From positions 1-34,679 of the forward strand of contig JAFZPZ010000055.1 in NCBI GenBank assembly GCA_017552435.1: 34,679 bases of DNA, in the 5' to 3' direction. This DNA is from Bacteroidaceae bacterium. GTDB taxonomy: Bacteria > Bacteroidota > Bacteroidia > Bacteroidales > Bacteroidaceae. Shown one piece after another: positions 28,905 through 34,679 of this stretch (positions are counted from its first letter, which is position 1; every line of letters begins with the position of its first letter). The notes below the pieces were generated by a model. It searched no databases, was not told where the DNA came from, and worked only from the letters and a program-made list of their open reading frames with translations. Both the position numbers and the translations under genes were made by a program.

Positions 28905-28989
28905 CGACAAAAAAAATGAAAAGCGAAAAATGAAAAGCGAAAAATGAAAATTCTTCTCCATTAATTCTTAATTCTTAATTATTTTTTCA

Positions 28990-32413: not shown

Positions 32414-33535
32414 TTACTTCACTTTCTTCTTCCCATCCTCAATATATATTCCTCGGGCAGGTTTGCCGGAAAGCCTGCGGCCCAGGAGGTCGTAGAGATC
32501 ATTTAACATTTTACCTTTGTCATTTAGCGTAGCGTCGGGGCTGCTAATGCCGGTCGGGTTACATCCTTCGTATTCTTGCCACATCATAACTTCTTCATCC
32601 CAATACATAGGTTTCCAACCTTTTGCCTTTGCTGCTGCTGCCTGGGTGGTAGTCATCACGCCCTGCTCGTCCTTGCTCAACACAGCACAGATATAGCTCT
32701 TGCTCACTATCGGTAGGCTCTTTATAAGTGCGTCCATAGCCTCGCCCGTGATTTGGTTATGGAAAGTTCGTAGCTCAGTCATCTTTTTGTTCTTCGATAC
32801 ATTGAGCGAGGTCAGTTGGTTGTCGTGGCACCAAAACCTTATCAGCTTTGTATTTTTCGACACATCAATCTCTGTCAACAGGTTGTTATTGCACCACAGT
32901 AGTGTCATCGAGGTACAATCCGACACGTCAAGTGAAGAGAGCTGATTATCGTAGCACCACAGCGTATCGATTGAGCAGCAACCAGATACATCCAGCGCAG
33001 TCAACTGGTTCAAATAACACGTCATCTTTGTAATTTTGCTGCACCCAGATGCATTGAGTGTCGTCAGCCGGTTACCGGCGCAGGCTAATTCTTTCAGTTT
33101 GGGACAGTACGATACATCCAGCGCAGTCAACTGGTTAGAATTACACTTCAGATATGTCAACTCCGTGTTCTTTGACAAATCAAGTTCCGTTAGATGATTG
33201 CTTCCGCATTGCAGTATTTGCAGGGCAGTATTCTTAGAGAGGTCCAGCTCCGTCAGTTCGTTCCTTTCGCAGTTAAGCTTTGTCATTGCGGTGAAGTACT
33301 CTATTCCCTTCAGGCTCTTGATGTCTCCCTTGGCAATTATATTTTGTGCTAACACATTGACAAAAGTGACACCGGCAATCTCTTCGTCTGTCAACACTCC
33401 GTCCTGTCCATAGGATTGCCTCAGCACCCAATTGCGAAAGTTCTCATCCGGGAAAGTTGTTTCGTTGATCTCCACGTCAGCACTTGCCACCAGCGGTAAT
33501 ATTGGCAGTAGGATGAATAAGAGTTGCTTCTTCAT
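32414..33535 (-). CDS. Secreted leucine-rich-repeat protein with Prevotella-type C-terminal tail
   Basis: The ATG at 33535 (MKKQLLFILLPILPLVASADV) gives a clear signal peptide; the longer frame to 33601 crosses the promoter. The first 80 mature residues lead into about nine 21-22 residue repeats of the form LTxLDxSxNTxLxxLxCxxNQ, with frequent cysteine on the concave side. After the repeats come a short linker, TGISSPDATL and the tail YDLLGRRLSGKPARGIYI, related to the tails of the two large secreted proteins at 1824-7234. Such LRR proteins usually mediate surface adhesion or binding. It has its own strong promoter (33564-33594) and is divergent from the hairpin array. Confidence 0.88.
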   Translation of the reverse strand: MKKQLLFILLPILPLVASADVEINETTFPDENFRNWVLRQSYGQDGVLTDEEIAGVTFVNVLAQNIIAKGDIKSLKGIEYFTAMTKLNCERNELTELDLSKNTALQILQCGSNHLTELDLSKNTELTYLKCNSNQLTALDVSYCPKLKELACAGNRLTTLNASGCSKITKMTCYLNQLTALDVSGCCSIDTLWCYDNQLSSLDVSDCTSMTLLWCNNNLLTEIDVSKNTKLIRFWCHDNQLTSLNVSKNKKMTELRTFHNQITGEAMDALIKSLPIVSKSYICAVLSKDEQGVMTTTQAAAAKAKGWKPMYWDEEVMMWQEYEGCNPTGISSPDATLNDKGKMLNDLYDLLGRRLSGKPARGIYIEDGKKKVK

Positions 33536-33563
33536 AATGATGTATCTTAGTAGTTTTTGGGAG

Positions 33564-33594
33564 CAAATATACGATTTCTTTCTGAAAGAACCAA
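33564..33594 (-). promoter_or_regulatory. Promoter of the leucine-rich-repeat gene
   Basis: On the minus strand TTG (33594-33592), 20 bases, then TATATTTG (33571-33564) fit the consensus. The start would be near 33557, about 22 bases before the ATG. Confidence 0.7.
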
Positions 33595-33662
33595 GAAACA
33601 TAGGGGTAATTGTGAAAAAACCTTAAAATTCGGGGGAAATCAAAAAGTTTTCTTGCTACCAA

Positions 33663-33693
33663 TTGCACCATTTGAAGAAAAGCCCTACTTTTG
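33663..33693 (+). promoter_or_regulatory. Rightward promoter into the hairpin array
   Basis: TTG (33663-33665), a 20-base spacer and TACTTTTG (33686-33693) fit the Bacteroidota consensus. Transcription would begin near 33700, about 30 bases before the first hairpin, so the whole array would be transcribed. Confidence 0.7.
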
Positions 33694-33717
33694 CACTCAG
33701 GATAAATATTGGAGGAT

Positions 33718-33821
33718 AGAAAAACACATGTTCGGCAGAAAGCCGGAATCTTTTTGGATGCTTTAGCACCAAGGCGCGCCCCTAAGGCGCGGAGCGAGTC
33801 AAGAAAAACACATGTTCGGCA
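33718..33821 (+). repeat. Pair of 20-bp direct repeats 84 bp apart
   Basis: AGAAAAACACATGTTCGGCA occurs at 33718-33737 and again exactly at 33802-33821. The 84-bp offset is twice the 42-bp period of the array that follows. Each copy contains the left arm of a hairpin. Confidence 0.9.
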
Positions 33822-34166
33822 CACTGCCGATACCCTCCCGAGAAAAGAAATATAGCATTGTAATCGTTACAAAACCTTGCCGAGAGGAAAAACAAGGTGT
33901 TGTAATCGTTGCAAAACCTTCCCGAGAAGAAAAACGGAGCTTTGTAATCGTTACAAAACCCTCCCGTGGAGAAAAACGGAGCTTTGTAATCGTTGCAAAA
34001 CCTTCCCGAGAAGAAAAACAGAGCTTTGTAATCGTTACAAAACCTTCCCGTGAAGAAAAACAGAGGTTTGTAATCGTTGCAAAACCTTCCCGTGGAGAAA
34101 AACGGAGGTTTGTAATCGTTGCAAAACCTTCCCGAAAAGAAAAGCGGGTCTTGTAACCGTTACAAA
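33731..34166 (+). repeat. Phased array of about eleven hairpins, 42-bp period
   Basis: Eight near-identical units have the palindrome TTGTAATCGTTACAA or its GTTGCAA variant, centred at 33865, 33907, 33949, 33991, 34033, 34075, 34117 and 34158 (spacing 42, last 41). They are separated by a spacer like CCTTCCCGAGAAGAAAAACG. Upstream, different palindromes keep the phase: TCGGCA-CAC-TGCCGA centred at 33823, CGCGCC/GGCGCG centred at about 33783, and TTCGGC/GCCGGA centred at 33739. Units alternate TTAC and TTGC, hinting at an 84-bp dimer. There are no spacers of unique sequence. Confidence 0.85.
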
Positions 34167-34265: not shown

Positions 34266-34679
34266 ATGAAGAACAACGATTCTTTGAACTTATCATGGTT
34301 GGGAAGACTGACAAATCCGCACCATGACGGTACGACGCAGCAGATCGACGATTTCCTGCAGTCGTTTGCGAGTGATAACCAAGTTTTTAACCAGAAGAAG
34401 GCCGCTGTCCATCAGTGCCGCCAGAATGAAGACGAGGTCTGGATCAAGTCCCAGCGCGACCCAGCCGTGAAGAATCTGGAGAACGCTGACAAGAGACAGG
34501 ATTCCTACGAATTGGCCGGACGCTACATCCTTGCAGCTCATGCCCAGCTGCCTGACGATGAGCCGACGAAGGCCGAGGCAGATGTGTGCTTGCAGATAAT
34601 CAAGGACGCCAAGTTCCGCACGAACGAAAGCTATGATGCCGAGGCGGACAAGATTATCCAGATTCACCAGAACCTGCAG
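34266..34679 (+). CDS. Partial helical protein, possibly DUF6261 family
   Basis: The ATG at 34266 opens a frame of 138 codons that runs off the window end without a stop. The protein is polar and helical, with no signal peptide or membrane segment: LSWLGRLTNPHHDGTTQQI at the start and EDEVWIKSQRD...LENADKRQDSYELAGRYI in the middle. The layout (a short LxxLxxxxHH start, then helices with a conserved acidic-Asp-Lys-Arg-Asp pattern) recalls DUF6261, a Bacteroidota family of unknown role; this is a weak match by memory. It is the first gene after the hairpin array and is probably transcribed from the promoter at 33663-33693. The C-terminal part is missing from the window. Confidence 0.6.
   Translation, partial: MKNNDSLNLSWLGRLTNPHHDGTTQQIDDFLQSFASDNQVFNQKKAAVHQCRQNEDEVWIKSQRDPAVKNLENADKRQDSYELAGRYILAAHAQLPDDEPTKAEADVCLQIIKDAKFRTNESYDAEADKIIQIHQNLQ

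Follow-up and report, generated by a model that had tools for sequence, protein, structure and literature searches.

Tandem arrays with a 41–42 bp pitch and lineage-specific sequence lie upstream of many DUF6261 genes in Bacteroidales

The window analysed here is a 34,679 bp stretch of a Bacteroidaceae bacterium genome (contig JAFZPZ010000055.1 of assembly GCA_017552435.1, forward strand). Near its right end, a tandem array precedes the 5ʹ part of a protein-coding gene (Table 1). TRF reports this array at 33832-34143, with a 42-bp unit, 7.4 copies and a score of 440. The palindrome TTGTAATCGTTRCAA occurs at 33858-33872, 33900-33914, 33942-33956, 33984-33998, 34026-34040, 34068-34082 and 34110-34124, and a loop variant at 34151-34165 is the last palindrome of the window. 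These positions agree with a first-pass annotation of the same DNA, which had placed palindrome centres at 33865, every 42 bp from there to 34117, and then at 34158. TTAC/TTGC is, as had also been reported, the only stem variant in the main array, with each form in four of the eight units. The intervening stretch, CTTCCCGAGAAG, had been described as a spacer; it is itself a weaker dyad that was overlooked in that reading. Its variants are partly paired (CTCC-CGT-GGAG, CTTC-CCGT-GAAG), and unpaired forms occur also (e.g., CTTC-CCGA-AAAG).

Table 1. Features in and around the window array.
Feature	Position	Strand	Details
Predicted Bacteroidetes-type promoter	33663..33694	+	TTG (33663), 21 nt, TACTTTTG (33687-33694); read from sequence
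First 28-nt unit	33718..33745	+	Dyad TTCGGC-agaaa-GCCG; similar to units of the C11 array
REP-like block	33754..33792	+	Two hairpins (TTGGATGC..GCACCAA; CGCGCC..GGCGCG); flanking units still in phase, 84 bp apart
Second 28-nt unit	33802..33829	+	Dyad CGGCA-cac-TGCCG; compensated relative to C11 form CGGCG-cac-CGCCG
Open frame over array	33812..34156	+	114 aa; 14-aa repeats
Main array	33832..34165	+	Eight 41/42-bp units, each a CTTCCCGAGAAG-type stretch plus a TTGTAATCGTTRCAA-type dyad
DUF6261 gene, 5ʹ part (assigned by similarity)	34266..34679	+	138 aa; ATG at 34266; reaches past the window end

Three further palindromes, reported near 33739, 33783 and 33823, can be read in the sequence ahead of the main array. 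The outer two lie within 28-nt copies that are 89% alike. The palindrome between them is part of a block made up of TTGGATGCTTTAGCACCAAG and CGCGCC..GGCGCG, of which two further copies lie inside another array of the same genome; the first half of the block is an interspersed repeat. TTGGATGCTTTAGCACCAAG (window 33754-33773; C66:586; C105:31819 and 31987; and others) is a REP-like interspersed repeat, occurring at 35 places with at most two mismatches (13 of them exact) and at none in a reversed control. This family includes compensated stem variants (TTTGATGC..GCACAAAG, four times; TTAGATGC..GCACTAAG, twice). Other features of the window are two short tandem repeats (19 bp at 21-84 and 14 bp at 28912-28950, from TRF) and a divergent neighbouring ORF of 395 aa on the minus strand (32414-33601) that has the look of a leucine-rich repeat surface protein. 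The predicted promoter is of the Bacteroidetes type, and transcription of the array from it is plausible.

The gene fragment downstream of the array is 92% identical over 136 aa to a paralog on contig C105 that matches DUF6261 (PF19775) at 46.1 bits against a curated cut-off of 27; the fragment alone gave no reported match in the Pfam scan. Judged by this similarity, the downstream gene is a member of DUF6261. The first-pass annotation had suggested searching the genome for the spacer, and CTTCCCGAGAAG does recur in three other arrays of this genome. One is the 42-bp array of the C105 paralog, which combines the same spacer with a different palindrome. The C11 array has the spacer with yet another stem, and no DUF6261 gene was seen adjoining it. 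The C30 array has both the spacer and the stem of the window; its preceding flank is similar to the 33663..33694 region but has no TACTTTTG box. About 70 bp past the C30 array, a short frame ends in the C-terminal tag of DUF6261 and HU-HIG proteins (see below), the picture expected of a DUF6261 locus that has decayed. None of the 138 other genomes of the genus that were searched contains the exact spacer. We rejected the idea that it represents a wider family: on our reading, the matches to a degenerate pattern (55 genome-collection and 6 viral stretches, from a search in which the window's genome and those very close to it were possibly not represented) are isolated singles.

Is the association between array and gene a general one? 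PF19775 occurs in 19 of 121 genomes of the genus, with up to 18 matches per genome. Our genus sample, which covers part of these matches, some further matching rows lying outside it, comprised 79 fetched loci, less six partial or edge matches omitted from every count (L195, L198, L199, L201, L204 and L207), plus four from the window's own genome and the window itself. Of the resulting 78 upstream regions, 71 had at least 300 bp; for some genes the start codon is a guess, namely whichever ATG lay closest to a point some 200 bp ahead of the domain. An upstream array with a TRF score of at least 80 was found at 53 of these 71 genes, as compared with one of 72 control ORFs. With a score of at least 40, the corresponding numbers were 59/71 and 11/72. 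The controls were mechanical ORFs of at least 150 codons, drawn from both strands of the DUF6261 loci themselves; some are possibly spurious, and their upstream regions, possibly coding, were not matched to those of DUF6261 genes for intergenic status. Across the order, 295 genomes in 184 genera were covered, and DUF6261 was found in 32 of the genomes and 20 of the genera, with the window's own counted. We took one locus from each of 29 other genomes and removed one at a contig edge (L282); 17 of the 28 remaining loci had an upstream array (score of at least 80). Hence, 18/71 genes in the genus and 11/28 in the order are without an upstream array at this score.

It is the pitch of the arrays that is most uniform. 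The 56 genus arrays with a score of at least 80, for which short upstream regions were included and TRF periods up to 60 were allowed, have periods of 40 (3 arrays), 41 (15), 42 (37) and 43 bp (1), with no others, and yet they fall into 46 sequence clusters when grouped by shared 9-mers of one strand. The 17 order-wide arrays have periods of 41 (12 arrays), 42 (3), 40 (1) and 43 bp (1). Within 800 bp upstream of DUF6261 genes, all 71 TRF rows with a period of 15-60 and a score of at least 80 have a period of 40-43 bp. In the remainder of the same 428 kb there are 49 such rows with scattered periods; 15 of these are 40-43 bp, and among the 15 are arrays that lie at a greater distance upstream of a DUF6261 gene, or on its downstream side, as well as repeats in coding tails. 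We also measured 272 unit spacings in 73 arrays: 40 bp (8), 41 (104), 42 (144), 43 (6), 82 (1), 84 (7), 35 (1) and 36 (1). Thus 262 of the 272 are 40-43 bp, and only two deviate from helical phase by over 2.5 bp if a turn is taken as 10.5 bp. Since these 73 arrays were preselected for a consensus length of 36-48 bp, the spacings show regularity within arrays; the period independent of such selection is given by the 56 genus arrays. A length of 41-42 bp is about four turns of B-DNA at 10.3-10.5 bp per turn. By these counts, the pitch is locked at 41-42 bp across different unit sequences.

The sequence of the unit behaves differently from its length. Array pairs share at least five 7-mers in 6/9 cases where the proteins are at least 80% identical, in 6/21 at 60-80% identity, in 2/47 at 40-60%, in 5/437 at 25-40%, and in 2/761 where the proteins are below 25% or unaligned. 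This comparison shows that array similarity tracks DUF6261 protein identity; unit sequences are largely private to a gene lineage.

Dyads are less universal than the pitch. Stems in the consensus units exceed those in shuffled sequences overall (Fisher p=1.3e-7), but the longest stem beats its shuffles individually (p<0.05) in only 13 of 46 units. Within an array that has a dyad, the dyad is conserved. Among 52 arrays with a stem of at least 5, with stems called on consensus units, variable positions number 151/3486 in stems, 148/1317 in loops and 545/5481 elsewhere, which puts variation in stems at under half of that outside. Variation is lower in the stem than outside it in 41 of the 52 arrays and higher in 10 (p=1.6e-6). 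The first-pass annotation had described stems that change while structure and phase are kept. The surveys of spacing and of stem variation extend that description beyond the window locus.

The same annotation had called for a covariation test. Six related arrays, which contribute 20 of the 33 distinct units found, do covary (0.278, against 0.105 when shuffled and at most 0.057 when slid). For two named dyads, 85.5% of cells are paired, and both sides are changed in 21 cells as compared with 7.1 in shuffles; this dyad structure was named after the alignment had been inspected, which biases the result in its favour. Two other measures on these six arrays did not rise above shuffles (pairs with a double change, 81/500; further pair types, 320/500). 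Inside single arrays, only five compensated pairs were seen.

A second protein family offers a parallel. The C-terminal tag GPIGDAE-stop occurs at 30 places in the window's own genome and at none in a reversed control. We scanned nine tagged proteins outside DUF6261: HU-HIG (PF18291), an HU-like family, is matched by six, and the other three have no match. Other genomes have different tips, again common to DUF6261 and HU-HIG proteins (GGLAG/GGLEG, GDGME/DNGME, PIED/PVED), and it is long Gly/Pro/Asp-rich tails that end in the genome-specific tip. HU-HIG and DUF6261 are different Pfam domains, but 11 of the 20 HU-HIG proteins examined have the Gly-rich tail and the local tip, or a near variant of it, as in DUF6261 proteins of the same genome. 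That many proteins of both families have the same tip in one genome suggests a common partner; the acidic tip of SSB is somewhat similar.

HU-HIG genes also have upstream arrays, with half the pitch. The 20 loci were hand-picked from 105 matches in eight genomes, with preference for fuller matches away from contig edges; arrays of 19-25 bp (score of at least 60) precede 12 of them and arrays of 39-44 bp precede none. For DUF6261 genes, the corresponding numbers are 3/71 and 53/71 in the genus and 0/28 and 17/28 in the order; each class precedes 1/72 control ORFs. The HU-HIG periods are spread over 21-24 bp, about two helix turns. One of these rows (L239) looks like a 7-bp repeat, and the dyad beats shuffles in only 2 of 12 units. 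The HU-HIG genes at L217, L230, L241 and L247 have arrays of 21-22 bp that contain dyads, e.g., CATACGTATCATCGAAACAAAT. The short arrays are mostly on genes whose product has no tip (8/9, as compared with 4/11 with a tip). Most DUF6261 frames from across the order have close to 250 aa, which probably leaves no room for the long tail. The tip may be a feature separate from the array.

What do the arrays do? The first-pass annotation proposed an RNA hairpin array under selection, and gave as the alternative a DNA-binding array with all palindromes on one face of the helix. We find the RNA proposal unsupported, and weaker than that DNA alternative, which better fits a 41-42 bp pitch held across different sequences. 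As an explanation, RNA would mean that transcribed leader hairpins regulate the DUF6261 mRNA or bind its protein, in the manner of a type III toxin-antitoxin system. The compensatory stem changes and the promoter predicted upstream of the window array fit this proposal, and so do the 30 of 73 arrays that end no more than 70 bp from the ATG: a TAnnTTTG box follows the array in only one of these 30, and hence they are probably transcribed. In 9 of the 30 a box precedes the array (0.9/kb), but such boxes are no denser than elsewhere, so promoters for the near arrays are not established by them. Another 37 arrays lie farther off, with more than 95 bp separating their end from the ATG; in 15 of them a box is found in the interval between array and gene, at a density of 2.3/kb as compared with 0.7/kb before the array. 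These 15 would lie upstream of a predicted promoter and outside the gene's own transcript. The original argument for RNA was that TTAC to TTGC leaves a G.U wobble on the sense strand, but this is one variant only. Of the 73 arrays, 69 have a consensus stem of at least 4; in these, distinct non-Watson-Crick stem changes comprise 42 sense G.U and 59 A.C (p=0.11), i.e., no preference; the counts are 26 and 38 at stem 5, and 13 and 30 where the array ends within 70 bp of the ATG. The C11 stem variant, CGCC to CACC, leaves an A-C mismatch on the sense strand. RNAalifold finds no consensus pairs in the six covarying arrays, and an Rfam scan of the window gave 0 matches at the gathering score. Finally, 41-42 bp is a natural length for DNA but not for RNA, nor for protein, since 41 is not a multiple of three. 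On the sum of these observations we prefer a DNA array. Overall, we consider an RNA function unlikely.

It is more doubtful still that the arrays are neutral minisatellites, produced when cassettes of gene and array are duplicated and the units are then replaced by slippage or gene conversion, with the pitch inherited. Such a history would fit the relatedness of arrays beside close paralogs and the last codons of a tagged protein about 70 bp past the C30 array, like a decayed copy; it is at odds with a pitch that stays at 40-43 bp in 46 sequence clusters and in the 17 arrays from across the order, with stems more conserved than their flanks, and with HU-HIG upstream regions that keep a different pitch in the same genomes. 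A recombination platform, in which arrays promote exchange among paralogous loci and shuffle the heads and tails of DUF6261 proteins, seems less probable again. Paralogs do have common C-terminal tips within a genome, more than one palindrome family occurs, together with the in-phase REP-like block, in each of the C75 and C105 arrays, and some contigs end near DUF6261/array loci. However, most arrays differ between loci, so the homology for exchange is absent, and the locked pitch is left unexplained. That the array encodes a protein of 14-residue repeats we regard as barely credible, although an open frame of 114 codons crosses the window array: 104 of the 272 spacings are 41 bp and shift the frame, the C105 array has an in-frame TAG on our reading, and no family matches above the curated cut-off. 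We judge the open frame of the window to be a by-product of the 42-bp pitch, and no gene.

The preferred explanation, in which our confidence is middling, is that each array is a cis-acting DNA element of the adjacent DUF6261 gene. With a pitch locked to that of the helix, the array would nucleate an assembly of proteins by which its gene is controlled or marked. On this view, the binding protein is dimeric or oligomeric and would occupy one face of the helix, with one set per unit; a regular nucleoprotein stack would form at the gene; the stack would control expression or mark the locus; and protein and array would diverge together. Candidate binders are the DUF6261 protein, a partner of the HU type, or a complex. 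The DUF6261 domain is mildly acidic (median net charge -5, positive in 6/69), which is poorly suited to DNA binding and counts against DUF6261 as the binder; the DNA-binding partner may be another protein. The HU-HIG domains are positive in 7/8 checked, and the DUF6261 proteins that have an array are the more acidic ones (median -6, n=45, as compared with -2, n=17, without; p=1.7e-4). Further points against the preferred explanation are the DUF6261 genes with no upstream array, the many units in which no dyad stands out from shuffles, and the window and C105 genes, which, with their 92% identity, differ in the longer palindrome.

More tentatively, and with the balance of probability against it, DUF6261 and HU-HIG could together be chromosomal, self-addressed nucleoprotein elements. 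Each gene's private array would have the pitch required by its protein, which is four turns in the case of DUF6261 and two in that of HU-HIG. Joint diversification of array and protein would keep paralogs orthogonal, and many members of some lineages would report to one partner through the genome-specific C-terminal tip. If letters are indeed free while the pitch is fixed at a helical multiple and tied to gene families across the order, this would be an unrecognised mode of DNA-protein assembly. The arrays would give a first functional handle on DUF6261, and on HU-HIG, and several genomes offer many natural pairs of protein and array.

How do these arrays compare with known systems? In parC/ParR and in iterons bound by Rep, helically phased tandem repeats that bind a protein lie beside the gene for the binder, often with autoregulation. 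DUF6261 arrays are alike in being tandem, phased and beside a gene; they differ in their 41-42 bp repeats, largely private to a paralog lineage, and in numbering up to 18 family matches per genome. No partition or Rep family is among the Pfam matches of 27 ORFs downstream of DUF6261 genes, and a plasmid search with one DUF6261 protein gave no match. Type III toxin-antitoxin systems such as ToxIN have a tandem-repeat RNA directly upstream of a gene, a layout that DUF6261 loci resemble, but DUF6261 arrays have no excess of wobble on the sense strand, and the C105 protein matches only DUF6261 above the Pfam cut-off and no ToxN/CptN/TenpN-type toxin. PADLOC on 29 members gave six families, each matched weakly by one of the 29. 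REP/BIME sequences with RAYT transposases are palindromic intergenic repeats, as here, in families dispersed in high copy over a genome (PMC3733652). Most DUF6261 arrays, in contrast, are individual in sequence; their pitch is fixed, and they adjoin a single gene family. The window palindrome occurs genome-wide in two arrays only, plus one single site with one mismatch, unlike the in-phase block TTGGATGC.., which is dispersed. BrickBuilt, a MITE minisatellite of Porphyromonas gingivalis, is likewise an intergenic Bacteroidales repeat of short pitch (23 nt, at 19 places in a genome), but it is one element, which its abstract ties to no gene family (PMC4596501), whereas DUF6261 arrays adjoin one family. 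The whole 42-bp unit of the window repeats, with none of the unique spacers that separate identical repeats in a CRISPR array.

We also searched more widely for clues to DUF6261. No description of its function was found in the open-access papers searched, one of which, a Streptococcus study, names it in a table; such arrays were not found described in the open-access text searched either, although absence there is not proof. Among solved structures none is convincingly related (best E 0.022), and a single-sequence structure model of the window fragment was unusable (mean pLDDT 49.6). A mobile or viral origin was considered and rejected: viral contigs held no relative of two query proteins, plasmids and phages none of one protein searched, and PHROGs and PADLOC gave only scattered weak matches.

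The surroundings of DUF6261 genes vary. Two genes without an upstream array (L095 and L193) have a 42-bp array downstream, as do two with less than 80 bp of upstream sequence (L191 and L202); these arrays may belong to the next gene, and we give them little weight. The 27 downstream ORFs have no common Pfam family beyond three glycosyltransferases, which may be ORFs of the orthologous loci L175-L177; one of the 27 is itself a DUF6261 gene. A small ORF found by regex match in three loci is one that we take to be smalltalk-like. By eye, two leader types, GCCGCCAAGTCTGTCGAAAGGAGCAG-like and GTCGAACCATAAAGACTCGCGCCCTCCGCC-like, seem recurrent before arrays, mostly those adjacent to the ATG (L134, L139, L148, L153, L159, L203; L151, L156, L164, L172, L178, L183, L190).
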